Assembly (NCBI RefSeq): GCF_037101375.1
Contig: NZ_AP029019.1
Coordinates: forward strand, 3,205,001-3,269,000
DNA length: 64,000 nucleotides
Direction: 5' to 3'
DNA from: Acidovorax sp. DW039
Lineage (GTDB): Bacteria; Pseudomonadota; Gammaproteobacteria; Burkholderiales; Burkholderiaceae_C
A program made the position numbers and the translations under genes. Below the pieces are notes generated by a model. It did no database searches and was not told the DNA's origin. It saw only the letters and a program-made list of their open reading frames with translations. Positions 22,963 to 51,879 of this stretch are shown piece by piece (the stretch's first letter is position 1; every line of letters starts with the position of its first letter).

Positions 22963-22993
22963 CTAGCAGCGAGTAAGCCCCATATCACAGGCC

Positions 22994-25118: not shown

Positions 25119-25135
25119 ATTCCCACTCAATCGTC
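25119..25135. repeat. Distal attachment site (att repeat of guaA 3' end)
   Basis: ATTCCCACTCAATCGTC, identical to 50265-50281. Read on the minus strand it encodes the guaA ending T-I-E-W-E but here is followed by TGA, whereas at the intact gene it is followed by TAA. The flanks on both sides differ from those at guaA, so the identity stops at the core. Confidence 0.85.
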
Positions 25136-29372: not shown

Positions 29373-29373
29373 A

Positions 29374-29763: not shown

Positions 29764-29903
29764 GGGAATCTCCATAGGTAGGGAACAAAACAAAACTGAA
29801 AAACAAACGGGCACGCTTAGTCCTCCGCGAACGATTGGCGGATAGAAGAGAAGCGAGAGAGATCAGCGCGGCTGCAGAACAGCAGCTGGAGAGAGACAGG
29901 GCA

Positions 29904-33147: not shown

Positions 33148-33153
33148 CGAACA

Positions 33154-33807
33154 ATGTTCAGACAAAACTTACAAGCATTTGCACGTGCGGCAAAGTGGCC
33201 GGTTATGGACTATGGTCTCCCGCATTTTTCCTTGACGCCAGCCATAATTCAACAGCTTAGGGAATTGCCTTATCTTGAACGCTGGAAGACGTCGATAGCA
33301 AATCAGTGGTATCACGTTCGTTTGGAAGACCATTCCTTGTTGACTTTTAGTTCAACTGCAACCTCCGCCTCTTATGCTTACCTGCACTGTCCATTGGACG
33401 CTCCAACCTTTCGTCAATTCGCATTGGACATGGGGCACCAATTTAATGCTGCCGCACGAGCTGAACTGCTCGAAGAATATCAACTGATCATCGACACCGC
33501 CATGCAAAAAGCGAATGTCACTCCGATCCGATACGATTATGACGAAAACGGCTATCGTCGTGGTGTCCATCCAGTTAGCCACATTCACATAGGTCTGGAC
33601 AATCACGTGCGGCTGAGCTCTTCCAAGAGACTCACTCCCACTTCCTTTGCTCTATTTGTAATGCGACAGATGTACCCCGAGTGTTGGGCTCGAGTCCTTG
33701 ATCACCAAGAAGCTGCGCGGCTGCCAAAGGCTATTCGACTCGGCTGTGTGCCACTGCATGAACCCCACTGGCACGAACAGGATCAGGTCGAGTTGCACTT
33801 TGTGTAG
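33154..33807 (+). CDS. DUF2290 family protein
   Basis: 217 residues. The segment RYDYDENGYRRGVHPVSHIHIGLDNHVRLSSSKRLTPTSFALFVMRQMYPECW is what I associate with DUF2290, a family of unknown function found next to helicases in defence-rich regions. Histidines in HPVSHIHIG and the acidic pair in the middle could form a metal or nuclease site, but this is not established. Six bases separate it from the helicase stop, so the two are co-translated. The frame ends before a 250-bp non-coding gap. Confidence 0.72.
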   Translation: MFRQNLQAFARAAKWPVMDYGLPHFSLTPAIIQQLRELPYLERWKTSIANQWYHVRLEDHSLLTFSSTATSASYAYLHCPLDAPTFRQFALDMGHQFNAAARAELLEEYQLIIDTAMQKANVTPIRYDYDENGYRRGVHPVSHIHIGLDNHVRLSSSKRLTPTSFALFVMRQMYPECWARVLDHQEAARLPKAIRLGCVPLHEPHWHEQDQVELHFV

Positions 33808-34056
33808 AGAAGCTCTACTTCTCGCAGTAAACAGCTGCGGCGTGCATCGGCCGTCGGGGATTGATTCGCTGAGGCTTTGACCCGCGTTTCAGGTACGTAG
33901 TTGAACGCGGCTACTTTGATAGATCGCTCGGTTGAACGGCCCCCCCCCTCACCGAGGGCATGCGCATTCTTCAAGTTGGCCTTCATAGGGCGAGCCAAAT
34001 GCGCCATGCAAACGCCGCTACCATCCCAAGAGAATGAACTGCTGCCCCCACAAAAC
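33808..34056. other. Intergenic region with nine-C tract before the methyltransferase
   Basis: About 250 bp. A run of nine C (33940-33948) is the only striking feature. The methyltransferase frame is open back to 33901, so the tract could be inside a longer N-terminus, but family similarity begins at 34057. Confidence 0.4.
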
Positions 34057-36846
34057 ATGAACGCGGTCGAAATCGAGTCAGCCGTATCAGACCTCGCTGC
34101 CCAGCCCTTTGACGCTGCGGAATTTCCTTACGCCTTCCTTGCTGCCTTCGGTAACAAGGAAACGACCCTCAAACGCCTTCGCACAGGCAACAACAACGCC
34201 TCTGACGTGCCTGGCGGAGTTCTCCTGCGCAACAACATCCACATTGCTGTGTGCGACGCTGGCGCTGTGGGTGAATCGCTCCGCACTCTGCGAGACAGCC
34301 CCGCCACCACCAAGGCCAAAGCCAAGTTCATCTTGGCAACCGATGGTCAGACACTCGAAGCCGAAGAGCTGATCAGCGGTGAGACCATCGCGTGTGCTTT
34401 TGAGGACTTCCCGAACCATTTCGGGTTCCTGTTACCGCTGGCGGGCATCTCCACGATTAAGGAGATCAAGGACAACCCCATCGACGTTCGAGCCACAGGG
34501 CGTCTGAACAAGCTCTACGTTGAATTGCTCCGTGAGAACCCTGACTGGGCCAGGGAAGAACGACGCAGCGACATGAATCACTTCATGGCACGGCTGGTGT
34601 TCTGTTTCTTTGCCGAAGACACGGACATCTTCAACGGCAAAGGCCTGTTCACCCAGACCGTGGACCAGATGAGCGCGAACGACGGAAGCAACACACATCA
34701 GGTGCTGTCTGAAATCTTCCGCGCCATGAACATCAAGGCGACTGAGCGTGCCAACGCCGATCCACGCTTACCGAATTGGGCCAACGGTTTCCCGTATGTG
34801 AACGGAGGCTTGTTTTCAGGCAGCACAGAGGTGCCGCGATTCACGCGCATGGCCCGCACCTACCTGATGCACGCGGGTGCACTGAGCTGGCGCGAAATCA
34901 ATCCCGACATCTTCGGCAGCATGATTCAGGCAGTGGCTGACGACGATGAGCGCGGAGCCCTGGGCATGCACTACACCAGTGTGCCCAACATCTTGAAGGT
35001 GCTGAACCCGCTGTTCTTGGACGATCTGCGCGCAGCACTGGCGGAGGCTGGTGACAACGAACGCAAACTGCTGAACCTGCGCAAGCGCATGGCTCGCATC
35101 CGTGTGTTTGATCCTGCATGTGGGTCGGGGAACTTCTTGGTTATCGCATACAAGCAAATGCGCGAGATCGAGGCAGAGATCAACCGGCGTAGGGGGGAGC
35201 TGCACCTGCGGAGTGAGGTCCCGCTAACCAATTTTCGAGGGATTGAACTGCGTGATTTCCCCGCTGAGATTGCGCGCTTGGCGCTCATCATTGCGGAATT
35301 CCAGTGTGACGTTATTTATCGCGGTCAAAAGGATGCACTGGCAGAGTTTCTGCCACTAGATGCGCAGAACTGGATCGTTTGCGGCAATGCGCTTAGGCTG
35401 GACTGGTTGAGTATCTGCCCACCCACCGGCACAGGGGTAAAGGTGGTTGGGGATGACCTGTTCAACACACCGCTTGATCAAACAGAAATCGACTTCGTTA
35501 ATGAAGGTGGGGAAACATACATCTGTGGTAACCCTCCATATAGAGGTAGTAAGTGGCAGACTGAGGAGCAGAAAGCAGACTTAGCAAATGCTTGGAGCAG
35601 GCATCCTAAACTTGCCAAGACCACAGACTTCGTAACGGGGTGGTTTGCACGATTTTTAGATTATGCAGACAAAGAGCCAACTGCTATTTCAGCTTTCGTG
35701 GCAACCAATAGCGTATGTCAAGGTCAGCAGGCGAGCGATGTCTGGCCTAACGTGTTTGGGCGTGGCTGTGAGATCCGTTTTGCCCACACCTCATTCAAGT
35801 GGAACAACCTCGCCAGCAACAACGCCGCAGTGACGGTGGTGATCGTAGGCTTAGGAAAAAAATCAAACGCTTCCAAATTTCTCTTTGAAAGTGAATTGGT
35901 GAAGCAGTGCTCGGCGATTGGCCCGTACTTACTACCCAACAGTCTTGCATACGTCGAGAAGACTAGTCAGCCTATCGGTGAGCAAGCGCCAATGCTTTTC
36001 GGCAATATGCCACGTGATGGCGGCCATCTTCTGATGGATACAGAAGTCGCGGCGAAGGTTGCAATTGGTGATGTAGTGGCGCAGCGTTTCATCAAGCGTT
36101 TCTGCGGCTCCGAAGAGCTTATCAACGGCAAGCTGCGATATTGCTTCTGGATTGAAGACGAAGCAGTGGAGGAGGCGAAGAAAAGCCACTTTATTGCACA
36201 GTGTCTCAAACTCGTGGCCGAGAATCGCAGTAACTCACCTGCGGAATCTACACGCCAGTTTGCCAAACGTCCTCATCGCTTCGTACAGATTGCAGGGGTT
36301 TCGGAAAAGACAGCGATCATCATTCCCACGGTCTCCTCTGAGACTCGCCCTTATCTTCCCGTTGGTTACTCCACATCAGAAACTATCGTCAGCAACCTCG
36401 CTTTCGCGCTTTACGATGCGCCACTTTGGAACATGGCGCTGATTGCCTCGCGATTGCATTTGGTTTGGATCGGTACGGTCTGCGGCAAGATGAAAACCGA
36501 TTTCCGCTATTCCAACACGTTGGGCTGGAACACCTTCCCAGTGCCGCTTCTCACCGAGCAAAACAAGGCTGACCTAACCCGCTGCGCAGAGGACATCCTG
36601 CTGGCACGTGAAGCTCACTTTCCAGCCACCATCGCCGATCTATACGATCCAGAAACCATGCCGGACAACCTGCGTCATGCCCATGAGCGCAATGACGAAG
36701 TGTTGGAGCGCATCTACATAGGCCGCCGATTCAAGAACGACACGGAGCGGCTGGAAAAGCTGTTCGAGCTGTACACCAAGATGACTGCCGCAGACAAGGC
36801 CAAGCCTGCTGCCAAGGCAACCCGAGGGAGAAAGAAAACCGTATGA
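34057..36846 (+). CDS. N6-adenine DNA methyltransferase of a restriction-modification cassette
   Basis: 929 residues. N-terminal domain (about 1-300) with NHFMARLVFCFFAEDTDIF, a region common to MmeI/YeeA-like enzymes. SAM motif I FDPACGSGNFLVIAYKQ (around residue 352) and catalytic motif IV GNPPYRGSKWQ (Asn492) define a gamma-class adenine methyltransferase. The C-terminal 350 residues, with WIGTVCGKMKTDFRYSNTLGWNTFPVP, resemble the target-recognition region of such enzymes, so specificity is probably built in; no separate specificity subunit is nearby. No nuclease motif is evident in this chain. Start 34057 (MNAVEIESAVSDL) matches the family N-terminus; 34006 is an alternative. It overlaps the helicase gene by 4 bp. 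Confidence 0.88.
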   Translation: MNAVEIESAVSDLAAQPFDAAEFPYAFLAAFGNKETTLKRLRTGNNNASDVPGGVLLRNNIHIAVCDAGAVGESLRTLRDSPATTKAKAKFILATDGQTLEAEELISGETIACAFEDFPNHFGFLLPLAGISTIKEIKDNPIDVRATGRLNKLYVELLRENPDWAREERRSDMNHFMARLVFCFFAEDTDIFNGKGLFTQTVDQMSANDGSNTHQVLSEIFRAMNIKATERANADPRLPNWANGFPYVNGGLFSGSTEVPRFTRMARTYLMHAGALSWREINPDIFGSMIQAVADDDERGALGMHYTSVPNILKVLNPLFLDDLRAALAEAGDNERKLLNLRKRMARIRVFDPACGSGNFLVIAYKQMREIEAEINRRRGELHLRSEVPLTNFRGIELRDFPAEIARLALIIAEFQCDVIYRGQKDALAEFLPLDAQNWIVCGNALRLDWLSICPPTGTGVKVVGDDLFNTPLDQTEIDFVNEGGETYICGNPPYRGSKWQTEEQKADLANAWSRHPKLAKTTDFVTGWFARFLDYADKEPTAISAFVATNSVCQGQQASDVWPNVFGRGCEIRFAHTSFKWNNLASNNAAVTVVIVGLGKKSNASKFLFESELVKQCSAIGPYLLPNSLAYVEKTSQPIGEQAPMLFGNMPRDGGHLLMDTEVAAKVAIGDVVAQRFIKRFCGSEELINGKLRYCFWIEDEAVEEAKKSHFIAQCLKLVAENRSNSPAESTRQFAKRPHRFVQIAGVSEKTAIIIPTVSSETRPYLPVGYSTSETIVSNLAFALYDAPLWNMALIASRLHLVWIGTVCGKMKTDFRYSNTLGWNTFPVPLLTEQNKADLTRCAEDILLAREAHFPATIADLYDPETMPDNLRHAHERNDEVLERIYIGRRFKNDTERLEKLFELYTKMTAADKAKPAAKATRGRKKTV

Positions 36847-38963
36847 GCGATCAAGCAAGCAACCCGACCAATGCGTACACCGTGCCATCGGTGTCCATCA
36901 CCACCGCACGCACTGGGGCGTCGAGCAAAGCCAACGAACTGGGCATGCGTGCCATGCAAGAGCGTGCCTACGCAAAGCGTGGTGAGCAATACCTGCTGAT
37001 CAAGTCTCCCCCGGCATCCGGAAAGTCCCGTGCCCTGATGTTCATTGCTCTGGACAAGCTGAACAACCAGGGTTTGCAGCAGGCCATCGTGGTGGTGCCC
37101 GAGCGCTCCATTGGCGGCAGCTTTGCCGACGAGCCGCTGACCCAGTTCGGCTTTTACTGGGACTGGAAGGTGGCCCCTCAGTGGAACCTGTGCAATGCGC
37201 CAGGCGGGGATGAGCCACGCACGGCCAATTCCAAAGTGGAAGCAGTGCGCCAGTTTTTAGCCAGCGATGACAAGGTGCTGGTCTGCACCCATGCCACCTT
37301 CCGCTTTGCTGTCGAGGAACTGGGCATCAACGCATTCGACAACCGCTTGATCGCGATCGACGAGTTTCACCACGTGTCCAGCAACCCGGACAACAAACTG
37401 GGCAGCCAACTGGGTGCCTTCATTGCCCGTGACAAGGTTCACTTGGTGGCGATGACGGGCTCTTACTTCCGTGGAGACAGTGAGGCCGTGTTGGGTCCGC
37501 AGGACGAATCCCGGTTCGAGACGGTGACGTACACGTACTACGAGCAGCTCAATGGCTACCAGTGGCTCAAATCGCTAGACATCGGTTACTTCTTCTACAC
37601 CGGAACCTATGTCGATGCGGTCAACAAAGTGTTGGACCCAGCACTCAAAACCATCGTTCACATCCCCAACGTGAATGCGCGTGAGAGCTTGAAGGACAAG
37701 CAACGCGAGGTGGACGAGATCATGCACGGCCTGGGTACATGGAAGGGTGTGGACCCCGACACTGGCTTTCACTTGGTCGAATCGCCACAAGGCCGAACCT
37801 TGAAGGTGGCGGACCTTGTTGACGACAGTGATCCGGCGAAGCGCTCTCGCGTACTTTCAGCGCTGAAAGACCCAGCCCACAAAAATGACCGTGACCATGT
37901 GGATGTGATCATCGCGCTGGGCATGGCCAAAGAAGGCTTCGACTGGATTTGGTGTGAGCATGCCTTGACCATCGGCTACCGCAGCAGCCTGACCGAAATC
38001 GTGCAGATCATTGGCCGCGCAACCCGTGACGCCAAAGGCAAAGAGCGGTCACGGTTCACCAACTTGATCGCGGAACCCACCGCAGAGCAATCCGCCGTGG
38101 CTGAGGCTGTGAACGACATGCTCAAAGCCATCTCTGCCAGCCTGCTGATGGAGCAGGTTCTGGCACCCCGCTACGAGTTCACGCCGAAGAACGCGGGTCC
38201 CCAGGACGGCTTCGACTATGGCGACGAAGGTTACAAGGAGGGTGGAAACAACATCGGGGTGAACAAGGACACGGGACAGATTCACTTGGAGATCGCAGGC
38301 CTCACCAAGCCTGAGACGCCGGAGGCCACCCGCATTTGCAAAGAAGACCTGAATGAGGTCGTCACGAGTTTTCTGCAAGACAAGACAGCGCTTGAACGCG
38401 GGCTGTTCGATAAGGAAAACACGCTGCCGGAGGAATTGACCCAACTGCGCATGGGCAAGATTGTGCGCGAGCGTTATCCCGAGCTGAGCGATGCTGATCA
38501 AGAGGCCATCCGTCAACACGCCATTGCCGCAATGAATATCACCCAGCAAGCGAAGTTGGCTTTGGCTCACGCAGATGCCAGCGGCAGTGGCACGGGGCAA
38601 GGAAGCACCGCCCTGATTGATGGCGTGCGCAAGTTCGTCAACGTGAAGGACTTGGACATTGATCTCATCGACCGCATCAACCCGTTTGATGCTGCGTACG
38701 CTGTGCTTGCCAAGGCCATGGATGAGAAGTCATTGCGCCAAGTGCAAGCCGCTATCGCCGCCAAGAAGGTGAGCTTGACGGAAGAAGAGGCGCGTGACCT
38801 CTCCAAACGTGCATTGCAGTTCAAGAACGAGCGTGGCCGCTTGCCGGACATCAACTCTGCCGATGCTTGGGAAAAGCGCATGGCCGAAGGTGTAGCAGCG
38901 TTCGCCCGCTATCGCGCACTCGCAAAATCAGCCCAGGCGCAAGGAGCACAGAGCAATGGCTGA
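36843..38963 (+). CDS. DEAD/DEAH-box helicase of the restriction cassette
   Basis: 706 residues. SF2 motifs: Walker A SPPASGKSRALMF, motif II LIAIDEFHHV, motif III AMTGSYFRGD, motif V-like VIIALGMAKEGFDWIWCEHALT, motif VI EIVQIIGRATRDAKGKERSRF. The C-terminal 250 residues are helical (NEVVTSFLQDKTALERG..., LSKRALQFKNERGRLP) and probably contact partners. It resembles the translocase part of type I and III restriction enzymes but carries no nuclease domain. It overlaps the methyltransferase by 4 bp and the GIY-YIG gene by 8 bp, so the three proteins are made together and likely form one complex. Confidence 0.88.
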   Translation: MSDQASNPTNAYTVPSVSITTARTGASSKANELGMRAMQERAYAKRGEQYLLIKSPPASGKSRALMFIALDKLNNQGLQQAIVVVPERSIGGSFADEPLTQFGFYWDWKVAPQWNLCNAPGGDEPRTANSKVEAVRQFLASDDKVLVCTHATFRFAVEELGINAFDNRLIAIDEFHHVSSNPDNKLGSQLGAFIARDKVHLVAMTGSYFRGDSEAVLGPQDESRFETVTYTYYEQLNGYQWLKSLDIGYFFYTGTYVDAVNKVLDPALKTIVHIPNVNARESLKDKQREVDEIMHGLGTWKGVDPDTGFHLVESPQGRTLKVADLVDDSDPAKRSRVLSALKDPAHKNDRDHVDVIIALGMAKEGFDWIWCEHALTIGYRSSLTEIVQIIGRATRDAKGKERSRFTNLIAEPTAEQSAVAEAVNDMLKAISASLLMEQVLAPRYEFTPKNAGPQDGFDYGDEGYKEGGNNIGVNKDTGQIHLEIAGLTKPETPEATRICKEDLNEVVTSFLQDKTALERGLFDKENTLPEELTQLRMGKIVRERYPELSDADQEAIRQHAIAAMNITQQAKLALAHADASGSGTGQGSTALIDGVRKFVNVKDLDIDLIDRINPFDAAYAVLAKAMDEKSLRQVQAAIAAKKVSLTEEEARDLSKRALQFKNERGRLPDINSADAWEKRMAEGVAAFARYRALAKSAQAQGAQSNG

Positions 38964-40143
38964 TATTGATGATGACGAACTGCTGGATGCACTGGGCGTA
39001 GAGGTAGCGCCGCTCAAAACGTCTAGCCGTACCCCTCGTGAAGAGCGCATCATCGCTGGCTTTGAGGACATTCTGCGGTTTCATCAAACCCATGGCCGAG
39101 CACCCCAGCATGGCGAGGATCGAGACATCTTTGAACGTCTGTATGCCGTTCGGCTGGATCAGCTGCGGAAGTTGCCCGAGGCTCAAACCCTGCTTGCAGA
39201 ACTGGACACCCCCAAGCTGCTCGAAGGCCACGAAATCGCGACAGTAGATGTGGACGCACTCGATGAGGATGCTCTGCTGGCTGAATTGGGAATCGGGGAC
39301 GAGACGGTCGAAGGGGATGACATCACCGTACTGCGGCATGTCCGATCCAGCACGGAGAAACGCGCCGCAGAGGAAGTGGCTGATCGGACAGCGTGTCAGG
39401 ACTTTGAGCGGTTCCACCCCTTGTTCGAGCAAGTGGAGCAAGACCTGCAATCTGGCGTGCGAAAGGCGCTGCGCTTCGGGCGTGATGCCAGCATTGCCGA
39501 TGGCAACTACTTCATCTTGGGTGGTCAGCTCGCCTATGTAGCGGAGGTCGGAGAGACCATCAAAGCACCGAACGGCGAGAACGATGCTCGTCTGCGCGTC
39601 ATCTACTCCAACGGCACAGAGAGCAACCTGCTGCGCCGCTCTTTGCAGCGTGCGCTCTACAAAGACGACACGGGAAGGCGACTCACCGATCCCAACATGG
39701 GACCACTGTTCAGCGACGAAGTGGAGCCAGAGGACATTGAGACAGGCACGATTTACGTCCTGCGCAGCAAATCAGACCACCCGTTCGTGGTGCAGCACCG
39801 TGAGTTGATTCACAAGATTGGGGTGACCGGAGGCAAGGTCGAAACGCGGATCGCGGGTGCCGAGAACCAGCCGACGTACTTGCTGGCAGGTGTGGAAATC
39901 GTTGCCACCTACAAGCTCCACAACGTCAATCGCGTGAAGCTGGAGGGCCTCTTCCATCGGGTGTTCAGCTCTGCTCAACTGGACCTCACCATTGAGGACC
40001 GTTTTGGCAAGCCAGTGAAGCCCCGCGAATGGTTCCTTGTGCCGCTGCACGTGATTGACGAGGTTGTCCAACGGTTGTTTGATGGGACGCTGGCAGGGGT
40101 AACGTATGACGCCTCCGAAGCAAGCCTTAAAGGATGTGATTAG
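38956..40143 (+). CDS. GIY-YIG family nuclease of the restriction cassette
   Basis: 395 residues. An acidic N-terminal arm (MADIDDDELLDALGVEV, similar to later ALDEDALLAELGIGDE) suggests a protein-binding region. The C-terminal 150 residues hold a GIY-YIG-like nuclease of the T5orf172/Mug113 type: TGTIYVLRSKSDH, IHKIGVTGGKVETRIAGA (the Tyr and Arg positions of the fold), then LHNVNRVKLEGLFHRVF with the metal-binding Glu. It is presumably the cutting subunit for the methyltransferase-helicase pair, with an 8-bp overlap to the helicase gene. Composition matches the two genes before it, so the three moved as a unit. Confidence 0.82.
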   Translation: MADIDDDELLDALGVEVAPLKTSSRTPREERIIAGFEDILRFHQTHGRAPQHGEDRDIFERLYAVRLDQLRKLPEAQTLLAELDTPKLLEGHEIATVDVDALDEDALLAELGIGDETVEGDDITVLRHVRSSTEKRAAEEVADRTACQDFERFHPLFEQVEQDLQSGVRKALRFGRDASIADGNYFILGGQLAYVAEVGETIKAPNGENDARLRVIYSNGTESNLLRRSLQRALYKDDTGRRLTDPNMGPLFSDEVEPEDIETGTIYVLRSKSDHPFVVQHRELIHKIGVTGGKVETRIAGAENQPTYLLAGVEIVATYKLHNVNRVKLEGLFHRVFSSAQLDLTIEDRFGKPVKPREWFLVPLHVIDEVVQRLFDGTLAGVTYDASEASLKGCD

Positions 40144-41223: not shown

Positions 41224-42225
41224 ATGAAGAAAATTCGCACTCCGCAGGAGGGCGCTGGCGCAGCTTTGTCGGCTCGCAGCACCAACACATCCAACACCAC
41301 ATCGCAAACGCCGCCGGAGAGCGTTCTGAGCGGTTTTTCGGCCATAGCCGAGCAGTTCATAGCGGCCAGCCAGTCAGCGGCTACCAAGCGCGCGTACGCC
41401 TCTGATCTGAAGCATTTTTTTGCCAACGGCGGGAGTGTTCCAGCCAGCCCTGCGGCTCTGGCCGAATACCTGGCCCAGTGCGCGGAAAAATTGTCAGTCG
41501 CCACCTTGGAAAGAAGACTGACCGCGATCCACAAAGCTCACCTCGAAAAGAATCTGGAGTCCCCGGCCCGCAGCGAAACCGTCAAGCGCGTGATGCAGGG
41601 CATTCGCCGAATCCTGGGCACCAAGCAGCGGCAGGTTCAGCCGATGGTCAAGGACGATCTGCTGGCGGCGCTGGTGATGATCGACCGGCAGACGAAGCCC
41701 GTCAAAGCGGCACGGGATCGAGCCTTGCTGCTTGTGGGTTTTGCTTCGGCCATGCGCAGATCGGAGCTTGTGGCTGTGCGAGTGGAGCATCTGACCCACC
41801 TGTCGAATGGCGTGGAGATTTTCTTGCCATCCAGCAAGACCGATCAAGAAGGCCATGGACGCACGGTTTTCATCCCACACGCCAATGGAGACCGCTGCCC
41901 AGTGCGTGCCTTGACGCACTGGCTGGACGTATCGGAAATCAATGAGGGGTTTGTGTTTCGTGCTGTCAGCCGCCATGACCGTGTTGCACGGCGGGGCTTG
42001 TCCGCGCAGTCCGTAGCGCTAGTGGTGAAGGCGTCTGTGGAGCGTGTTGGCGGGGACGCGAAGAAAGTCAGCGGCCATAGCTTGAGGGCTGGCTATTGCA
42101 CAAGCGCAGCGGAGAAAGGTCTGCAGCCATGGCAGATACGTGAGCAAACCGGGCACAAGTCAGACGTGACCTTGGCCAAGTACATCCGCCCTGTCGCGCG
42201 GAGGAAGATTCCGAGTTTGCTGTGA
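41224..42225 (+). CDS. Tyrosine recombinase (site-specific integrase)
   Basis: 333 residues. An N-terminal SAM-like DNA-binding domain (about 40-120: AEQFIAASQSAATKRAYASDLKHFF) is followed by the catalytic domain with Arg in SAMRRSELVAV, the Lys of the beta-hairpin in SSKTDQEGH, HSLRAGYCTSA (His-x-x-Arg box), TGHKS (second His) and the nucleophile in LAKYIRP. All six catalytic positions appear present, so it should be active. It lacks the N-terminal Arm domain typical of tRNA or guaA-targeting integrases and is probably from another element nested in the island, or acts in XerD-like fashion. Confidence 0.9.
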   Translation: MKKIRTPQEGAGAALSARSTNTSNTTSQTPPESVLSGFSAIAEQFIAASQSAATKRAYASDLKHFFANGGSVPASPAALAEYLAQCAEKLSVATLERRLTAIHKAHLEKNLESPARSETVKRVMQGIRRILGTKQRQVQPMVKDDLLAALVMIDRQTKPVKAARDRALLLVGFASAMRRSELVAVRVEHLTHLSNGVEIFLPSSKTDQEGHGRTVFIPHANGDRCPVRALTHWLDVSEINEGFVFRAVSRHDRVARRGLSAQSVALVVKASVERVGGDAKKVSGHSLRAGYCTSAAEKGLQPWQIREQTGHKSDVTLAKYIRPVARRKIPSLL

Positions 42226-42401: not shown

Positions 42402-43406
42402 TTGCCATCGGATTCAGTGCGTCTAAGAAACGAGTTGCGCGTTTGCATGCCGAGTTTAATCATCGACCGTGCCCTTGCACCCTCCGGGCAGCGTGTTGTG
42501 TACTTGGCGAGATTTCAAGATTCCTTGATTCCTGAGGATATGCGCAGAGCAGCGGAGACTGTCGCCAGTCTTGAGGTTCTGGATATTGACGATCCAGATG
42601 ACAGCCCATTCCTATGGGGCTGGGAGTCATGGGGCAACGTCGTCGTCAAGGTGGTGTCTGGTGCAGACACCAACACTATTGCTCGCCTTCAGGCTGAAGT
42701 TGACATCTTGGCAGCGGTCAGGCCAGCCAATTTTCCGAAGCTTCTGTACGCCAACTTGTTCAAAACCAATCCGGAAACCGACGAGCCGCTTGCGGAGCGG
42801 CTCTATGTGACCATCGAAGAATTCATCGAAGGGAACCCGCTTGAGGACATTTGGCAGCATTACTGCGGCGATGAAAAGCGTATCGCTACGCTCGCCCTGG
42901 GAGTTGCAAACGCATTGATGCCACTGTGGGTTCATCCACAACGGTTTGTGCACCGTGACATCAAACCGCCGAACATCCTTGTTCGGCCAAACGGGGAGGT
43001 TGTTGTCATCGACCTAGGCGTGGTCCGTGAGACAGGCGCCAAAGGACTTACGCAAACCGGCTTCGTTGCCCCCCTAACCCCGGGCTATGCTGCTCCAGAG
43101 CAGTTTAGGGACGAACGCGCGCTCATCTGTTTCAAAACGGATTTCTTTGCAATTGGTGTGGTGATGTACCTTCTGGCGTCGGGTATCCATCCATTCCATT
43201 GGGATAACGACATGGACCAGTTAGATGTTCAGATCGCAACTCTAAAACACGATCCCAAGCCGTTAGCTGAACTCGTGCAAGTCTCGCAGTCCTTCTCCGA
43301 TTTCGTAGAGAGAGCCATGAAGAAGGCGCAATTTGAGCGGCAACGCACGCCCAACATTTTTGTTGAGCAACTTGAGGCACTTTGCGGCCTCAACCAGAAC
43401 CATTAA
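42402..43406 (+). CDS. Serine/threonine protein kinase
   Basis: 334 residues, soluble, no transmembrane helix or sensor domain. Kinase motifs: VVVKVVSG (Lys of subdomain II), HRDIKPPNIL (catalytic loop), VVVIDLGVVRE (metal-binding Asp with DLG in place of DFG), APEQF (APE) and TDFFAIGVVMYLLASG. The N-terminal 60 residues are not a canonical glycine-rich loop (PSGQRVVYLARFQD). The start is a TTG at 42402 preceded by GGGAGGG, a very strong ribosome-binding site; ATG 42447 is weaker. It is followed after 14 bp by the unrecognised gene at 43421. Defence kinases of this size occur in islands; the target is unknown. Confidence 0.88.
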   Translation: MPSDSVRLRNELRVCMPSLIIDRALAPSGQRVVYLARFQDSLIPEDMRRAAETVASLEVLDIDDPDDSPFLWGWESWGNVVVKVVSGADTNTIARLQAEVDILAAVRPANFPKLLYANLFKTNPETDEPLAERLYVTIEEFIEGNPLEDIWQHYCGDEKRIATLALGVANALMPLWVHPQRFVHRDIKPPNILVRPNGEVVVIDLGVVRETGAKGLTQTGFVAPLTPGYAAPEQFRDERALICFKTDFFAIGVVMYLLASGIHPFHWDNDMDQLDVQIATLKHDPKPLAELVQVSQSFSDFVERAMKKAQFERQRTPNIFVEQLEALCGLNQNH

Positions 43407-43420
43407 TTAGGAGGAAAGGC

Positions 43421-44569
43421 ATGCCGCTTGGACTGCTCCATCAGGTCGGACACAACGCAAACTGGAACATTGAGTCTTTTCTTAGCGAGCGGTGCGGAGA
43501 CGGACTTGTACTGAGCCCACTTCACCAAGCGCTGCCGACAATCGAAAAGCTCGCTCCTGCGACGCGGGCCGCGTCGCTTTTCGACCCTCAGTTCTATCTG
43601 CCGAATTCCCGCAAGCGAAAGCTGCTGTCCTATCCGTTTTTTCCTGAGCAGGCATCAGGGGGCTTTCAAACCGGGACATTTGCTGAACACTCGTCCCAAG
43701 TCGCGCAGGCCTGTGTGGATTTCCAGATCGACCAGGGCTTTCGCAAGATCGTAGTTCCGACCCGCTTCCTGAAGGAGATGTATCCCGAGTACTTTCAGAT
43801 GCAAGAGGAGTTCTCGGTTAACCCATTTCTTGCCGTTGCTGGCAACAGACCGCTATGCCTGTCGCTCGCTGTCAAGGCAAGCATGATTAGGCATGCCAGC
43901 TGGCGTAGGATGCTCCTTGATTGGATTACTCATTTCCACCAAGTGGACGAGCTCTATCTCATGTACGAGTTTGAGCGAGACACCAAACAGGTACAAGACG
44001 CTGACTTTTTGAGGGAGACCTTGCGGTTTTTCAGGGAGGTGATGGGGACCGGACTACAACTGACGATTGGCTACACGAACACAGAAGGCCTGCTTTACTC
44101 TGTTATCGGTGATCCCAACATCACGATGGGCGCATTTGAGAACACGCGCATCTTCTCGGAAGACAAGTTTGTTGAATCCGACGGTGCTGTACGAGGGCCC
44201 AAAGCGCGTATATATCTGGCTGGACTTTTGAACTGGGTTCAGTTTGAAGATGCCCAACGCATTCGGACACTAGCGCCGGAAATATGGCGACAGGTATATC
44301 ACCCCACTGACTGGGCTGAGAACGCGCTCTCACAGGCGGTGGAGCCTACGTTTAACCAACCTGCGCTTTACAAGCACTATTTCCTCAACATGCAGGCTCA
44401 CGTTAACGAGTTGCGTGCGATGAGCTTGGATGAACGACTGTCAATGCTCAAACGTCGGGTAGCTCATGCACAGCGGATGTATCAGGCGTTAGAGTCTCGC
44501 CTTCCGCTTGAACGACATGGGAGAAACGGCCACCTTGCCTCATGGGCGGAAGCCCTAGAAACGTTCTAG
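43421..44569 (+). CDS. Unrecognised protein co-expressed with the kinase
   Basis: 382 residues with no membrane segment. Recurring hydrophobic strand-helix units (DFQIDQGFRKIVVPTRFLKEMYPEYF, NPFLAVAGNRPLCLSLAV, VDELYLMYEFERD, MGTGLQLTIGYTNTEGLLYSVIGDPNITMGAFENTRIF) suggest a TIM-barrel-like alpha/beta protein. No catalytic motif I can name. AGGAGG just before ATG 43421 gives a strong start; the 14-bp gap after the kinase makes an operon and a kinase-substrate or toxin-partner relation plausible. Its last 15 bp overlap the tail of the convergent nuclease-like gene. Confidence 0.6.
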   Translation: MPLGLLHQVGHNANWNIESFLSERCGDGLVLSPLHQALPTIEKLAPATRAASLFDPQFYLPNSRKRKLLSYPFFPEQASGGFQTGTFAEHSSQVAQACVDFQIDQGFRKIVVPTRFLKEMYPEYFQMQEEFSVNPFLAVAGNRPLCLSLAVKASMIRHASWRRMLLDWITHFHQVDELYLMYEFERDTKQVQDADFLRETLRFFREVMGTGLQLTIGYTNTEGLLYSVIGDPNITMGAFENTRIFSEDKFVESDGAVRGPKARIYLAGLLNWVQFEDAQRIRTLAPEIWRQVYHPTDWAENALSQAVEPTFNQPALYKHYFLNMQAHVNELRAMSLDERLSMLKRRVAHAQRMYQALESRLPLERHGRNGHLASWAEALETF

Positions 44570-45241
44570 TAAAGGCCGCTTTGCCACTACCCGGGCAGCC
44601 AAAACTGCCTGAGCCTGCCATCTTTTGGCGATGCTCATTGGGCCTCCGAAGACAGCGGCTGAGTGGATGTAGAGTCCAGCCTGGCTGTCAACGGACGCCA
44701 AACCTATACCGAGAGACTTGAACCTGCCAATCTGGGCAAGTGCAGGCCGCACATACGCGTGATCGAGAACAACCCAGGATTCATCCGCAAACTGCAAATT
44801 CCTGTATGCCTGTACAAGCACGCGTTTCCACTCGCTGAGCTTGGCCTCAACCGCAATCACCCTTTCAAACGGGAGGGTAGATACTGTTGAAATAGAAAAC
44901 TCCTTAGCAGACCCACATGCAAGGCCAGCAGAGGACAGCTGAGCAAGAACGCGTTGCGCCCCACCGTCAGATGTGCCTAACGCGCTTGCCAGAGCTGCTC
45001 TGGTACTGATCGTTGATCCAACACCATGGCTCAGCAGCACAGCAAGGCGCGGATTGACGCTTGATAGCGCTCTGAGCGCACCCGTGGTCCTTGCAGCTCT
45101 CTTTGCAAGTACGAGGTCGGCGATCCCCACACCTGCGTCTAGCTCCAACTCAACTCGATAGTCACGACGCTGCGCACGCCGAGTGCACGCCACAATGGCT
45201 TTTACCAACTGTTCTTCTGTGTCGAATCCGACGTTCTTCAA
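44555..45241 (-). CDS. Possible PD-(D/E)xK nuclease-fold protein with helix-turn-helix insert
   Basis: 228 residues, probable TTG start with AAGAGG nine bases upstream. Two elements suggest a restriction-nuclease fold: LELDAGVGIADLVLAKRA near the N-terminus and VIAVEAKLSEWKRVLVQAYRNLQFADESWVVLD in the middle, where E-A-K matches the E-x-K of the fold. Between them lies a winged-helix-like stretch (STRAALASALGTSDGGAQRVLAQLSSAGLA). It is convergent with the kinase operon and might belong to the same defence locus. Fold-level inference only. Confidence 0.5.
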   Translation of the reverse strand: MKNVGFDTEEQLVKAIVACTRRAQRRDYRVELELDAGVGIADLVLAKRAARTTGALRALSSVNPRLAVLLSHGVGSTISTRAALASALGTSDGGAQRVLAQLSSAGLACGSAKEFSISTVSTLPFERVIAVEAKLSEWKRVLVQAYRNLQFADESWVVLDHAYVRPALAQIGRFKSLGIGLASVDSQAGLYIHSAAVFGGPMSIAKRWQAQAVLAARVVAKRPLLERF

Positions 45242-45412
45242 ACTGCATACCTCTTGTCATTGGGTCTTGTCTCGATCACAAACTGGGCCTGGGGAGCCAG
45301 ACTGGACCAGAACTATAGCGAAGGCACCCTCGCCTCGTGAGCGTACATGACCGATTGCAACAAGCCATTTTCTGGAATCCGGCAAGAGTCAACGATAGTC
45401 GACGCGTCCCCA

Positions 45413-45835
45413 TCACCCGCCCAAAAACAGCGCGATCCGGTCTGTAGTCCATGTCGCCACCCCAGTGCCGAAGAAGTCTGCGTCCTCTGTCCAGACAGGG
45501 CAGCCAAGCACCATCGCACATGCTAGTACCGGCCAGTCGTCGGCATCACGCATCTCGATCCTGCGCAGGGCTTGCTGCTGCAGCCCCCCGTAAACCTCCA
45601 TATCCATGGGATGAACGATGCGCTCAAGAGCATCGAGGACCAGCATGGCGGGGATGGGATCAACGCCTCGTTTTTTCAGCAGCGCAGGCAGGTACTTCCG
45701 TGCATCTGCATACGCCACATCAGGGGCAAAGAACTTCACGGTATCAGCGTGAGCCTGAATCAGTTCGAGGACACGCGTGCCCAGCACTGCACGGATCAGG
45801 ATGTTGGCATCCAGAACGATTGCCGCGCTGCTCAT
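45413..45835 (-). CDS. PIN-domain toxin (VapC-like)
   Basis: 140 residues. PIN-fold acids are seen in VLDANILIRAV (first Asp), VAYADARKYLPALL, MRDADDWPVLACAMVLGCPVWTEDADFFGTGV (the downstream acidic cluster). PIN toxins are Mg-dependent ribonucleases that cut tRNA or rRNA. The gene overlaps the antitoxin gene by 4 bp (ATGA), the classic antitoxin-first arrangement. Length is standard. Confidence 0.85.
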   Translation of the reverse strand: MSSAAIVLDANILIRAVLGTRVLELIQAHADTVKFFAPDVAYADARKYLPALLKKRGVDPIPAMLVLDALERIVHPMDMEVYGGLQQQALRRIEMRDADDWPVLACAMVLGCPVWTEDADFFGTGVATWTTDRIALFLGG

Positions 45836-46110
45836 TTGGCCCTGGCACTGGTGGCAGGAGCGCTCTTCTTTCGGGCTTTCTTGAAGTCAGCAACTATGTC
45901 CTCTACATCCACACCCTGAGCAGACAGCAGCTTATCGAGTGACTGGCTAGCTTTCTTCAAGGCCACCAAATCCGCCTCGGCCTGGCCGTGCACGGGGATG
46001 AAGTAGCCGACCGTCTGACCGTGACGAGTCACAGCAACAGGGCTGCTGGCCGCGATGTACTCAGCCAAGTCCGCGCGGAACTCGCGGATTCCTACCTTTG
46101 TGGCTTCCAT
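45832..46110 (-). CDS. Phd/YefM-family antitoxin
   Basis: 92 residues. The N-terminal half KVGIREFRADLAEYIAASSPVAVTRHGQTVGYFIPV is the Phd/YefM DNA-binding fold; the C-terminal part is basic and would wrap the toxin. It binds its own promoter: a perfect palindrome containing TGTACA lies 24 bp upstream. Pairs with the PIN toxin downstream (4-bp overlap). Confidence 0.88.
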   Translation of the reverse strand: MEATKVGIREFRADLAEYIAASSPVAVTRHGQTVGYFIPVHGQAEADLVALKKASQSLDKLLSAQGVDVEDIVADFKKARKKSAPATSARAK

Positions 46111-46148: not shown

Positions 46149-46445
46149 TTAAGCTATGCGATGTAGGCTGTCAAAGTGCATAGGGGTGTTGCTGCGAGAT
46201 GGGCGACGCCAAAGATGTTTAAGCCGCTGGTAACAGCCACCATGTAACCAAAGCATGAGATTTGCTGTGCTGGACGCTGCTGGACTTCAGCCAGAGCCAC
46301 TACCGCTAGCGGGCCAAATTCTGATGTTTGACATGCCGATTGCGGCCACCAAAACGGCCATCAAGCGTACTTTTCTGCTCGGCTGACACAGATGGTGCCG
46401 TGACGGCTCAAAAGCGCTCAAGACGCGAACCAGCCGGTTGATCGC
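46149..46445. other. Gene-free stretch
   Basis: About 300 bp between the antitoxin promoter and the end of the leftward replication-initiator-like gene. No gene, hairpin terminator or repeat stands out. Confidence 0.5.
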
Positions 46446-47528
46446 TCAACGCAAACGATGGCGCTTTTGCTGCTGCTGCTCTGCATGGCTGTCTGGTGGC
46501 TCAAACGCTTCTGGCGGGAACATGCCTGTATCGCGCAGCGCATCGCACGCCTGCTGCCACAGCTCTTCCGGTTTCCACCATGCAGTCTGATGGCTGCGCC
46601 AGAACGCATGCACTTTGCGCGCGTGATCGGTGTGCTTGAATGCCTCCAGAGCAGCTTTGACGCCGTCCTGGCGACACATCGCAAGAAGCGATTTTTCGAC
46701 CAGCGGTTCAAGCTCTGCGCCTCTGGCAGACAGATCGGCAAAGTGGAAGCGGGCAAAGCGGTTGGTCTGCTGTGGCAGCTTCCACAGCGGCAGGCCGCGC
46801 ATCTTCTTGCCGCGCACTTCAACGCGGACGACCTCAGGACCGCCTAGCACTCGCTTCAACTGCTTGATCTTGTTGGCCTTCAGCGGATCATCGTTGAAGC
46901 CGGACGAACCGGACTGGGCAATCGCCAAGATCGCTGCGTGAACAAGCTCTTGCTGCTTGTTGTAGGCGGTTGTCTCGTAGTCACTGCTAACGCTGCCGAA
47001 GTTGTAGCCCTCGATGAAGCCGCCCTTGCCGACGCGCTTTGCCATCACACTCATGCGCTGGCCGTTGTCGTAGCGCACCAGCATCCGGGTCAACGCTGCA
47101 TGGTAGATGTCCACCGCAAAGTGAATGACGTTCAGCAGCGGGCGGTGCATCAAATCGTTGTACTCACGGCGACCGATCAGATCACGCATAACACGATGGA
47201 TTTGCTGGGCGTCGCCATCGGCAAACTTTGCGGGGTTGCACTCAATGCGAATGCTGCCTTTCTGGCGGACGGAGTCAACGGCGCCGATCTGTACCAGCGC
47301 TTTGCCGCCTCCGCCAAGCAAGATGCGGAAATTCTCGCGGTATCTGGACTTCCCAAGATAGGCGCGCTCGCAAACACCAGATTCGATCAGCTTGTTAATA
47401 CGACTCCGCAGATTCTGGAGCAGAGCATCTTGATCAAGGCGATCCACATACCAGGCCAAGATAAATGCCAGACCGTCTACGAGGGGCGGTTGGGGAGTAG
47501 GTTGCATAACAACTGGACGGATTTTCAT
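46446..47528 (-). CDS. Replication-initiation-factor-like protein (Rep_trans type)
   Basis: About 360 residues from MKIRPVVMQPTPQPP. The fold hints are GSIRIECNPAKF, the central LLNVIHFAVDIYHAALTRMLV and YNFGSVSSDYETTAYNKQQEL, the last resembling the Y-x-G-S-x-x-S-D-K-x-x-x-x-Y-D-K segment of Rep_trans rolling-circle initiators, followed by VRVEVRGKKMRGLPLWKL with the acidic metal ligand (R-V-E-V-R). Such proteins nick a double-strand origin. The start is uncertain (47528 preferred, 47576 possible). Non-coding, repeat-bearing DNA lies upstream. Could be an island replication factor or a relic. Confidence 0.6.
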   Translation of the reverse strand: MKIRPVVMQPTPQPPLVDGLAFILAWYVDRLDQDALLQNLRSRINKLIESGVCERAYLGKSRYRENFRILLGGGGKALVQIGAVDSVRQKGSIRIECNPAKFADGDAQQIHRVMRDLIGRREYNDLMHRPLLNVIHFAVDIYHAALTRMLVRYDNGQRMSVMAKRVGKGGFIEGYNFGSVSSDYETTAYNKQQELVHAAILAIAQSGSSGFNDDPLKANKIKQLKRVLGGPEVVRVEVRGKKMRGLPLWKLPQQTNRFARFHFADLSARGAELEPLVEKSLLAMCRQDGVKAALEAFKHTDHARKVHAFWRSHQTAWWKPEELWQQACDALRDTGMFPPEAFEPPDSHAEQQQQKRHRLR

Positions 47529-48120
47529 ATCACTGCTTTCAACACTTGATGGATGGAGCCGATAGCTCTCGGGCATATCGACTGCATCTGCCGCATGGGG
47601 TTGGCGCCGTGCTGGCACTGATCTGAACTTGCCGCCGTAGGCATGCTGCTTCGTGTGAGTGCAATCAGGCGCTGTGCACCATGCTGCTGATGCACAAGTT
47701 ATTTACAGTTTTTGTTTTATGGCTCTGAGTGCAGATGGCTGCTGAAGCCAGTTGCTGCAGTCAGTGGTCAGCGCAGCAAAAGCCGCCTGCAGATGCGCAG
47801 AACGGGGCTGCGCGTTGCGTGTTGCGGCGCGATGACATAGCGTGATTAGCTGCTGCTGGTGGTGAGTAATGTTGGTACAGCTGTTTGTCGCTATAGCTGG
47901 TACTGGTCACACATCTCACATACATCACATAGCTCAATCACACTCTTGTTAGAGCCACTGACAGATGCTCAAACGATCGTAGTGAATCCGGTCAATAACA
48001 CTGGAAAAGTTCACCGTTCATCCACATCCAGAAAATGACCGAATCAAGACTTGATTTGGGGGACATCCCCCCCGAAATATGTGCATATTTACATATTTAG
48101 TCTTCAGGGGAGGCGGTGCC
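47529..48120. other. Repeat-bearing non-coding region, candidate origin
   Basis: About 590 bp without a gene. Iteron-like TCACAYA copies at 47907, 47916 and 47925 (9-bp period) and 47938; perfect inverted repeats AATCAAG-A-CTTGATT (48042-48056) and AAATATGT...ACATATTT (48075-48098); a GGGGG/CCCCC hairpin around 48058-48071. It separates the replication-initiator-like gene from the integrase-like gene. Confidence 0.45.
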
Positions 48121-50052
48121 TCAAGCAAGAAGAATTGCTTGTTTAATCGCATAGAAGCTGGCGCTGCGGTTTTCCGAGCCAGGTGCATGGAACTGTTTTG
48201 TCGGCACGCCACGCGCTCCAGGCACGAGCAAATGTTGTTCACGCAAAGCCTTGAGGGCGATCTGGAGATCGAGTCCCTTACAGACCACATTTTCCAAATA
48301 CGAGGGATACACCAAAAATAGCGCTTCCTTGTTTGAGCGCCCCCTGTACTCATATCCCGCAACCGTCCCCTTGTGCTGTTCATTGAACTGCTGGAACGGC
48401 TTGAACTTATCGCCGCGCTGAGATTGAAAGAACAAGCGCAGATGCTTCATCACGGCCTCTTCGGAAATCGGAAGGCTTTGCTGATAGTCAGCGTGCCACT
48501 GCGCGAAGCTGCGCGCTATGGCTTTCATGACTTGCTCCTTACTCCAACCGACTGCTTGCGCGTCAACTGCCATCAGGCCGGCAAAGGCGAAGAGGACAAA
48601 GTTCTCGCGCATACGATCAGAGACACCGTCCGTTTGGTTGAACGTCAGCCCCTCGGTCAGATGATCACGAAGCTCAGGCGCAAGCTTGGAATATTCGGTA
48701 TGCAAGTGCGGCAACTGCTCCACCAGATGTGCACAGAGAGCTGCGCCTGCATGCCCGTAGCACTCGTTCAGCAGACTGGCAATTGCCTTGGATTTTTCGG
48801 CACCGCTTTCGTACCCACGCACGTTGTCCCAGAGTCCATGTTTGCTATTGACCTTGAGGCTCGGCAAGCGAGCCATTTGACCCTCTTGAACCGTCAGGCC
48901 AGCACTGCGCATGCGAGAAAGCGCAGACACCTCTCCCGCGCTCATGACCATGGAGTAATTGCGCGAAAGCTCTTGCAAGTTAAAGCTTGCAAATTCATCA
49001 CCTCTCGACCTGACAGCCGCAATGCCAACCTCGACGACTCGATTGAGTGTCGCGTTGCTGATGGGAGTATCCATGTCATATCGACCAGGATGCAGAAAAC
49101 GGGAAGCACTGAAGCAAGTCTTGAAGGTCACCAGAATATCGAGCGCTTGATTACTCAGGTAGACAACATGGGGCTTGCCAGTTTTCATGCGCTCTTTAGG
49201 AATCGTCCATGTGGCATTGTCAAAATCGACCTCATCCCAAGTCGCATTCACAAACTCACCCTTGCGAACCATCGTCAGCATGACGAAGCGCAGCGCTAAA
49301 CGCAGCGTTGGCGCCGTGGCAGTGGTTTCTAATGCAGCGAGAAATTGCCGAATTTCAATGGGAGACAGCGCACGATCACGGGCTTTGAATGTTGCAATGT
49401 CACTCGGGCGAATCCCGTCTGCGGGGTTGACCACAACAACGGACTTGTCTTTGGATGCCGCGAATCGGTACACCAGCAGAACGATCTCGCGCACCTGAAC
49501 GGCAGGCGCAGCCGCACCCTTATCCTTGACACTTTCGCAATGCTTCATCAGCATGGCGGGCTTAATTTCGTCGAGTTTGAGCTTTCCGAACGGTCCTTCA
49601 AGATACCGCTTGTAGACCGAGCGACGCATGGCTAATGTGGAATCTGCGAGCCGGGCACCATTTTTCGGATCACTCTTGTCCTCGAAATATCGTTCAGCCC
49701 ATCGGCCAAACGTCAAAGCATCCGCTGCGTCTTGACGACGTTCGGCTTTGGAGCGTGATGGCGACTCGCCCCTTTCCACCAATCGCCGTGCCACGGACAG
49801 CAGTGTCCTGGCTTCGGCCAATGAAACAGTCATGCCGAATTCGAGTGCTTCGGGCTCACGGGGGTGTTTGGCTCCGGCCGTGTCATCGTACTTTCCAATA
49901 GTCAGCGTTTCACGACGACCATTGAGACGATAGTCGTAGCGGAACGACTTGGTGCCGGTGACAGAGACCGTGACGTACATGCCATCACGGTCTGCAACCT
50001 TAAACGACTTTTCGAGCGGGCGCAGCTTGCGCAGTCCGGTATCAGTGAGCAT
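48121..50052 (-). CDS. Chimeric integrase: tyrosine recombinase N-terminal half fused to a DUF927-like C-terminal half
   Basis: 643 residues. Residues 1-100 are the Arm-binding (DUF4102-type) domain, about 110-210 the SAM-like core-binding domain, and 245-300 the start of the catalytic domain with its first Arg (TMVRKGEFVNATWDEVDF, Arg263) and hairpin Lys (KTGKPHVVYLS). At about residue 357, after the normal SNATLNRVV...FASF, the expected H-x-x-R box and Tyr nucleophile do not appear. The chain instead continues with MSAGEVSALSRM...EGQMARLPSL, YGHAGAALCAHLV and FVLFAFAGLMAVDAQAVGWSKEQV, a layout typical of the DUF927 C-terminus. It probably still binds att DNA but should not recombine. It lies 211 bp from guaA. 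Confidence 0.75.
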   Translation of the reverse strand: MLTDTGLRKLRPLEKSFKVADRDGMYVTVSVTGTKSFRYDYRLNGRRETLTIGKYDDTAGAKHPREPEALEFGMTVSLAEARTLLSVARRLVERGESPSRSKAERRQDAADALTFGRWAERYFEDKSDPKNGARLADSTLAMRRSVYKRYLEGPFGKLKLDEIKPAMLMKHCESVKDKGAAAPAVQVREIVLLVYRFAASKDKSVVVVNPADGIRPSDIATFKARDRALSPIEIRQFLAALETTATAPTLRLALRFVMLTMVRKGEFVNATWDEVDFDNATWTIPKERMKTGKPHVVYLSNQALDILVTFKTCFSASRFLHPGRYDMDTPISNATLNRVVEVGIAAVRSRGDEFASFNLQELSRNYSMVMSAGEVSALSRMRSAGLTVQEGQMARLPSLKVNSKHGLWDNVRGYESGAEKSKAIASLLNECYGHAGAALCAHLVEQLPHLHTEYSKLAPELRDHLTEGLTFNQTDGVSDRMRENFVLFAFAGLMAVDAQAVGWSKEQVMKAIARSFAQWHADYQQSLPISEEAVMKHLRLFFQSQRGDKFKPFQQFNEQHKGTVAGYEYRGRSNKEALFLVYPSYLENVVCKGLDLQIALKALREQHLLVPGARGVPTKQFHAPGSENRSASFYAIKQAILLA

Positions 50053-50262: not shown

Positions 50263-51879
50263 TTATTCCCACTCAATCGTCGCTGGTGGCTTGCTGCTCA
50301 CGTCATACGCCACGCGATTGATACCGCGCACTTCATTGATGATCCTGCCAGACACTTTCTTGAGCAACGCATAAGGCAGCTCAGCCCAGTCCGCAGTCAT
50401 GAAGTCGCTGGTCTGCACAGCACGCAGGGCCACCACGTAGTCGTAGGTACGGCCGTCACCCATCACTCCCACACTCTTCACAGGCAGGAACACGGTAAAC
50501 GCTTGGCTGGTCAGGTCATACCAAGTCTTACCTGTGGCCTCATCCTTGAAGTTGCGCAACTCCTCAATGAATATGGCGTCGGCACGGCGCAGCAGATCGG
50601 CGTATTCCTTCTTGACCTCGCCCAGGATACGGACCCCCAAACCAGGTCCTGGGAAGGGGTGGCGGTAGACCATCTCGGGTGGCAAACCCAGGGCCACGCC
50701 CAATTCGCGCACTTCATCCTTGAACAAATCGCGCAGAGGCTCCAGCAGCTTCAGGCCCAGCTGCTCGGGCAGGCCACCCACGTTGTGGTGGCTCTTGATG
50801 GTGACGGCCTTCTTGCTCTTGGCGCCACCGGACTCGATCACGTCGGGATAGATCGTGCCTTGGGCCAAAAAGGTAGCGCCCTTGTGGCCGCCAGTGCCAG
50901 CCTTGAGCTTGGCAGCCTCGGCCTTGAACACATCCACAAACAGGCCACCGATGATCTTGCGCTTTTGCTCGGGCTCGCTCACCCCGGCCAGCTTGCCCAG
51001 GAACAGGTCGCTGGCGTCCACGCGGATGACCTTGGCGTGCAGCTTGCCTTCAAACATGTCCATGACCATGTCACCCTCGTTCAGGCGCAGCAGGCCGTGG
51101 TCCACAAACACGCAGGTGAGCTGGTCACCAATGGCGCGGTGAATGAGCGCGGCAGCCACGGACGAATCCACACCACCCGACAGGCCCAGAATCACTTCTT
51201 CGTCACCGACCTGCTCACGGATTTTCTGAACGGCCTCTTCGATGTAGTCGCCCATGATCCAGTCGGCACGGGTGCCGCAGATGCCCAGCACAAAGCGCTC
51301 CAGCAGCGCCTTGCCCTGCACGGTGTGCGTGACTTCGGGGTGGAACTGCACTGCGTAGTAGCGGCGGCTTTCGTCGGCCATGCCGGCAATGGGGCACGAG
51401 GGCGTGGAGCACATCACCTTGAAGCCCGGGGGCAAGGCGGTGACCTTGTCGCCGTGGCTCATCCACACCTTGAGCATGCCGTGGCCTTCGGCCGTTGCGA
51501 AGTCTTCGATGCCCTTGAGCAGCTCGGTGTGGCCATGGGCGCGCACTTCGGCATAGCCAAACTCACGGGTGTTGGAGCCTTCGACCTTGCCGCCCAGCTG
51601 CTGGGCCATGGTCTGCATGCCGTAGCAGATACCCAGCACGGGGATGCCCAGCTCAAACACGGCGTCAGGAGCCTTGTCGTCCACCTCGTACACGCTGGCG
51701 TGACTGCCAGACAGGATGATGCCCTTGAGCTGACCATCCTTGGCGTAGTCACGAATCCAGTCGCTGGAGACATCGCAGGGGTGCACTTCGCAGTACACAT
51801 GGGCTTCGCGCACGCGACGGGCGATGAGCTGGGTGACTTGCGAGCCGAAATCGAGGATGAGGATTTTCTGGTGTTGCAT
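50263..51879 (-). CDS. guaA: GMP synthase (glutamine-hydrolysing)
   Basis: 538 residues. The N-terminal class I glutamine amidotransferase has VLGICYGMQ (nucleophile Cys) and the FHPEVTHT histidine/glutamate pair. The ATP pyrophosphatase domain has the PP-loop [13 protein letters not shown], and the C-terminal dimerisation domain ends PPATIEWE. It converts XMP to GMP, the last step of guanine nucleotide synthesis. The 3' end is the island attachment site. It follows guaB and a toxin-antitoxin pair on the same strand; the PIN gene stop is 12 bp upstream. Confidence 0.97.
50265..50281. repeat. guaA-proximal attachment site
   Basis: ATTCCCACTCAATCGTC at the very 3' end of guaA (encoding T-I-E-W-E on the minus strand), identical to 25119-25135. 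Insertion here leaves GuaA intact, with its TAA stop in the island-side sequence. Confidence 0.85.

Follow-up and report, generated by a model that had tools for sequence, protein, structure and literature searches.

An integrase gene joined in frame to the end of a DUF927 replication gene in a guaA island of Acidovorax

Tyrosine recombinases act through a catalytic set that can be written R..K..HxxR..H/W..Y. The closest described systems to the gene presented here are the P4/CP4-like integrases with an Arm-DNA-bind_3 domain, and the replication helicase/primase proteins of integrated elements that carry the DUF927 domain (PF06048). A profile of the DUF927 family finds, among solved structures, the SaPIBov1 Rep protein (8tch, E 5.7e-22) and the SCCmec Cch helicase (5dgk, E 2e-11) over profile positions 112–371 and 185–364, respectively, which are mostly the ATPase part. 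Fusions involving integrase genes have been described previously: according to the portion of PMC10111431 that is drawn on here, satellite int genes become fused with a fragment of an upstream prophage gene by integration, annotated fusions were curated, and fusions by loss of intervening DNA were also weighed. Among the titles listed for the literature on DUF927 together with integrase, or on guaA islands, none names an int-DUF927 fusion. Here, we focus on such a fusion in Acidovorax sp. DW039, found in a window of 64,000 nucleotides, the whole stretch of DNA that was analysed.

The sequence-only reading of this window described positions 48121 to 50052 as one open frame, in which an ordinary Arm-type integrase continues up to the residues FASF and then switches to the C-terminus of a DUF927 protein. 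The frame is indeed uninterrupted; it lies on the minus strand, running from 50052 down to 48121, and encodes a product of 643 amino acids, termed P0001, with the following parts.

48982..50052, minus strand: residues 1–357, the arm-binding, core-binding and first catalytic part of a tyrosine integrase (Pfam, PHROGs, identity to P0035)
48981..48982, minus strand: the fusion joint, FASF-NLQELSRNY (window DNA and parent alignments)
48121..48981, minus strand: residues 358–643 and the stop codon, the C-terminal part of a DUF927 replication protein, behind PF06048 (identity to P0002, PHROG 1139)

The first half contains the Arm domain PF13356 (residues 2–104, E 1.5e-16), the central domain PF22022 (residues 115–201, above the Pfam cut-off) and a partial PF00589 domain, in which residues 229–309 match profile positions 3–81 of 172; in intact P0035, by comparison, the match to PF00589 extends to position 169 of 172. 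An NCBIfam integrase model matches residues 2–340, far below the model's cut-off. This separate profile search of the integrase half, as proposed by the sequence-only reading, reveals no complete recombinase active site. Searched alone against Pfam, the second half matches no family above cut-off and shows no PF06048; a sub-threshold match to BcrAD_BadFG (E 0.07) was set aside. PHROGs splits the protein in two, assigning residues 1–340 to integrase and residues 348–638 to the end of a DNA primase family (PHROG 1139, profile positions 630–889 of 895).

The kinship of each half was established by searching them separately. Residues 352–643 were compared with 5.8 billion proteins, with candidates limited to about 354–1125 amino acids, and this yielded 34 matches, P0001 itself and 33 others with identities of 22–99%. 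PF06048 is present in all 33 other matches and integrase domains are present in none of them; a homologue with the same junction, for which the earlier reading had proposed a search, is not among the 34, where an integrase is fused to a DUF927 tail in P0001 only. Of 7994 candidates scored in a search with residues 1–370, 4423 matched at E 1e-60, and PF06048 occurs in none of the 119 other matches listed of these 4423. The best other match to the integrase half is P0035, a complete integrase of 443 amino acids, and the best other match to the second half is P0002, a complete DUF927 protein of 617 amino acids. In gap-free pairwise alignments, residues 1–357 of P0001 are identical to residues 1–357 of P0035 at 348 of 357 positions (97.5%), and residues 358–643 are identical to residues 332–617 of P0002 at 282 of 286 positions (98.6%). 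Because two different parents match this closely on either side, the joint is not due to chance, and a fusion of two parent proteins at this point is well supported.

The earlier description of residues 1–357 as an ordinary Arm-type integrase up to FASF is therefore accurate. The switch to DUF927 sequence also stands, at residue 357/358, with one correction: PF06048 spans residues 57–335 of P0002 and P0001 keeps P0002 only from residue 332 on, so that, judged by sequence, what survives is the stretch that follows the PF06048 domain and not the domain itself. Pfam alone misses the kinship because this stretch starts where PF06048 ends; the DUF927 similarity predicted after residue 360 is thus absent from the Pfam search, an outcome that by itself would have refuted the sequence-only reading, but is present in the match to PHROG 1139 and in the 33 relatives with PF06048.

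At the joint, P0035 reads FASF-TVHDLRRTASS and P0002 reads ADTEG-NLQELSRNY. The P0035 motifs HDLRRT, AHEE and GVYNKAEY are all missing from P0001, which agrees with the earlier claim that H-x-x-R and the Tyr nucleophile are gone. RKGEF is retained at residue 263, and the Lys region of the catalytic set is likewise retained in the gap-free alignment with P0035. P0001 has the Arm and core-binding domains of a tyrosine recombinase without the full catalytic set; on its motifs, it has lost the H-x-x-R box, the second His and the Tyr nucleophile, and should therefore not cut DNA. The DUF927 side is lost as far as residue 331 (P0002 numbering), including GSSGTGKT (253–260) and DEIGQ (301–305), which we take to be the Walker A and B motifs of P-loop ATPases. 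PF06048 with both Walker motifs is absent from P0001, and its C-terminal part shares common descent with the family. With the ATPase motor missing, the protein should not unwind DNA, and it is very probably devoid of both recombinase and helicase activity. The joint is flanked on either side, at a distance of less than 30 bases, by the sequence TTGCAAG, soon followed by GCTTT (48940–49000). This TTGCAAG repeat was rejected as the cause of the joint, since a slip would leave one copy and two remain.

Structure prediction, which the sequence-only reading had put forward as a check, is consistent with such a cut. The P0001 model (mean pLDDT 75, pTM only 0.35) is mostly confident for the arm and core-binding parts and for residues from about 450 on, and all but one of residues 360–434 fall below pLDDT 50. 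The corresponding stretch of the P0002 model (pTM 0.62), residues 341–410, has block means of pLDDT 54–94, with residues 323–336 low there too, in a comparison of models that rest on alignments of unequal depth (46 rows for P0001, 15 for P0002). The models suggest that the cut left about 75 residues of ATPase fold disordered. A cut that passes through two folded domains and ignores domain borders is expected of an accident, and not of shuffling at those borders. A Foldseek search with the P0001 model returns lambda integrase and its relatives first; the matches to SaPIBov1 Rep and SCCmec Cch are weak (E 0.01 and 0.03) and presumably run through the second half.

A 17-bp direct repeat delimits an island of about 25 kb, and the fused gene occupies its guaA end. 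The relevant features of this island are as follows.

50263..51879, minus strand: guaA (GMP synthase), the integration target (ORF list; the homologous stretch is annotated guaA in a plasmid match)
50265..50281, minus strand: att core GACGATTGAGTGGGAAT at the guaA 3' end, on the integrase side (repeat comparison)
46446..47618, minus strand: the next gene after the DUF927 remnant, with no family match (a homologue follows the DUF927 gene in L036)
41224..42225, plus strand: a second tyrosine recombinase inside the island (PF00589 19–168 of 172, no Arm domain match)
25119..25135, minus strand: second copy of the 17-bp core, at the far island end (repeat comparison; a similar end with the motif is found in the genome G001, L078 3130–3397)

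The locus has the hallmarks of a guaA island, with the repeat from the guaA 3' end at both ends and the integrase beside guaA; guaA is directly upstream of the fused gene and both are on the minus strand. Copies of the 17-bp core are expected by chance at a level of about 0.0003, assuming equal base frequencies. guaA is present in all 47 genomes of the genus, from which 30 loci were kept; these include the locus described here, leaving 29 others. A gene at positions 21387–22963 of the window is found within 1.5 kb behind guaA in 10 of these 29 loci, and because it adjoins guaA there, the stretch that separates the two in the window has been inserted. Integrase-like DNA is found behind guaA in seven of the 29, and neither feature is found in 12 at that DNA threshold, some of which (for example G011 and G018) have an integrase by protein. 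Between the far core and the conserved flank gene lie 2.2–2.7 kb. Apart from an island end in G001 that matches 25109–25189, the 46 other genomes of the genus contain no match to the 1.5 kb left of position 25109, and this DNA may represent a separate insertion. In one other genome (G015, L047), 29 of 30 bases just behind guaA match the integrase-side edge of the island, and are followed by other sequence and the flank gene; this match is perhaps the scar left by a related island that has since been lost.

The second recombinase has a nearly complete catalytic domain, in which H-S-L-R, G-H and a Tyr were seen by eye, and it may be able to move the island. It is 87% identical to L078 14072–15175, with the flanking DNA unmatched on both sides, and stands as if between two cargo slots. 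Positions 31012–40143 carry candidate defence genes, namely a UvrD-like helicase next to a DUF2290 protein (both PADLOC models), an MmeI-type IIG restriction-methylation enzyme, a DEAD helicase and a T5orf172 protein. Positions 42402–46110 carry a protein kinase matching PD-T4-6 models, a 395-residue protein without a family, and a PIN toxin with a weak Phd-like antitoxin match. Segments in common with the cousin island of G001 are the left end (69% over 268 bases), the internal recombinase, and DNA at 46222–47246 (85%) and 28762–30467 (73%); the cargo between them is not shared. At guaA, G001 carries an undamaged integrase (68%), with a different ORF behind it and the island end on another contig; no DUF927 match is found in this genome at E 1e-20. 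Two G001 contigs (C11 and C23, containing L079 and L078) both end in a similar IS-like stretch and one of them stops inside a homologue of the 46446–47618 gene, so an insertion may split the cousin island.

Whether int and the DUF927 gene shared one element was addressed by examining their neighbours. A contig of a metagenome-assembled Comamonadaceae genome (L036) has a homologue of the 46446–47618 gene behind its DUF927 gene, split into two overlapping frames. A second contig with a DUF927 gene (L037) has no true relative of 46446–47618 by tblastn, so this neighbourhood was seen directly once; L037 also has no relative of P0035 on the 14.9 kb covered. Its DUF927 gene (8606–11785) is near a tRNA-Arg and polA. 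The longest contigs recorded for all listed proteins were also compared for exactly equal size, using 33 DUF927 proteins, 119 integrases and 120 next-gene homologues. DUF927 proteins and next-gene homologues share four such sizes against 0.18 expected, and more than three were never seen in 3000 draws. Integrases and DUF927 proteins share one (8123) against 0.18 expected, at least one being reached in 17% of draws, and integrases and next-gene homologues share two against 0.93 expected, no more than chance. One shared size, 1663, is too short for both genes. DUF927 genes and genes of the 46446–47618 type travel together, and the fusion and the common strand make it likely that the guaA integrase belonged to the same element.

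Unfused parent DNA was sought widely. In genome contigs, none of 24 pattern matches obtained with P0002 was confirmed, and the 15-row alignment A1 led to L036 and L037 out of 445 pattern matches, both distant. In viral contigs, P0002 gave no pattern match and none of 90 was confirmed with A1. Nine others of the 47 genus genomes have matches, at just 23–27% identity; 399 family genomes gave one other match (G358, whose coordinates suggest the same contig as L036), 399 order genomes gave one other match, and 40 plasmid records all fall below 60%.

We consider it probable that P0001 arose by a recent in-frame deletion that fused int to a DUF927 gene, both from one guaA element, and that its product is inactive. 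An element with int and a same-strand DUF927 replication gene would have resided in the guaA 3' end, and a deletion involving hardly any sequence homology, or none, would have joined int codon 357 to DUF927 codon 332. The residues that flank the joint in the parents are Thr after TTT and Gly before AAC; if the parents encoded P0035 and P0002, these codons imply that at most 2 bp were shared, and homology was probably slight. What would remain of the integrase in the product is its arm- and core-binding parts together with the first catalytic Arg. A deletion fusion is supported by two near-identical parents that meet at one codon without gaps and by the independent PHROGs split, and the shared minus strand of guaA, int, the DUF927 piece and the next gene fits a deletion within a single element. 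Counting against it, the searches above found no unfused parent DNA in genomes, viral contigs or plasmids, and the fusion has not been quickly lost: the open frame was kept, as expected of one random joint in three, and P0001 is counted as one identical sequence on 23 contigs. An origin by recombination between two tandem islands at guaA, one contributing int and the other DUF927, would give the same dead fusion; we regard it as unlikely but worth weighing. guaA is a busy site, as the integrase-like DNA at seven other loci attests, the position of the far core means that more than one event may have occurred, G001 pairs its intact integrase with a different ORF, and no contig directly seen carries int and DUF927 together. 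On the other hand, the common strand and gene order fit one element and the two halves stand at about the same distance from their respective parents. An assembly or sequencing artefact is the least credible reading of all: among 60 genomes (the source genome included) no other match listed spans both halves, but the joint lies within a 4.85 Mb contig and 23 contigs are counted for the protein, a number that does not imply independent isolates.

The sequence-only reading had offered two outcomes, a deletion fusion that froze the island or a new two-domain att-binding protein. The fusion is observed, in its two near-identical parents, while its origin by deletion and the freezing of the island are what these observations suggest; the second outcome gained no support. 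A working protein, in which the DNA-binding half of the integrase steers the helical DUF927 tail to att or arm sites as an excision repressor or replication silencer, would have an open frame without stops, an identical sequence on 23 contigs and two end modules that are predicted to fold. Such a protein is nevertheless very improbable, given that this is the sole joint of its kind among the 34 second-half matches, that a predicted disordered ATPase remnant lies between the modules, that the fusion is young by sequence and that it has no diverged relatives to reveal selection. It would be equally surprising if P0001 had been co-opted as a non-catalytic att-site regulator that holds the defence island in place and also blocks the integrases of incoming relatives. 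No diverged copy of the fused gene was found, and age was gauged by comparing residues with unfused relatives (18 other integrases and 15 other DUF927 proteins). P0001 differs from its parents at 13 sites; at nine its residue is shared with at least one sampled relative and at four (31, 175, 452 and 478) it is unique to P0001. With so few private residues, little time has passed since the fusion, and no stop codon has entered the frame.

The deletion fusion thus looks like ordinary island decay by accident and not like a novel type of enzyme. The island retains both att cores and probably cannot excise by means of its own guaA integrase. P0001 may still bind arm or core sites, but such binding would be incidental; if it did attach to att sites, it would naturally inhibit excision. 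P0001 would be a clean and recent example of an integrated element losing its mobility, in which a single joint costs the integrase its active centre and the replication protein its motor, leaving an open frame that would be annotated as an integrase. A Pfam integrase match does not mean that an island is mobile.

In relation to the described systems, P0001 shares its arm, core-binding and first catalytic parts with P4/CP4-like Arm-DNA-bind_3 integrases; it is 97.5% identical to such a protein over 357 residues and 42% identical to the integrase of phage epsilon15, and its arm domain is related to the solved structures 3jtz and 3ju0. In contrast to these integrases, it has no H-x-x-R, second His or Tyr, and its C-terminus is foreign. 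With the DUF927 helicase/primase proteins of integrated elements it shares the C-terminal 286 residues, as represented by P0002, but has neither Walker motif and lacks nearly all of PF06048. Satellite int fusions, as presented in the portion of PMC10111431 considered here, arise at the upstream side by integration, whereas the int of P0001 is cut mid-gene and joined to a replication gene.
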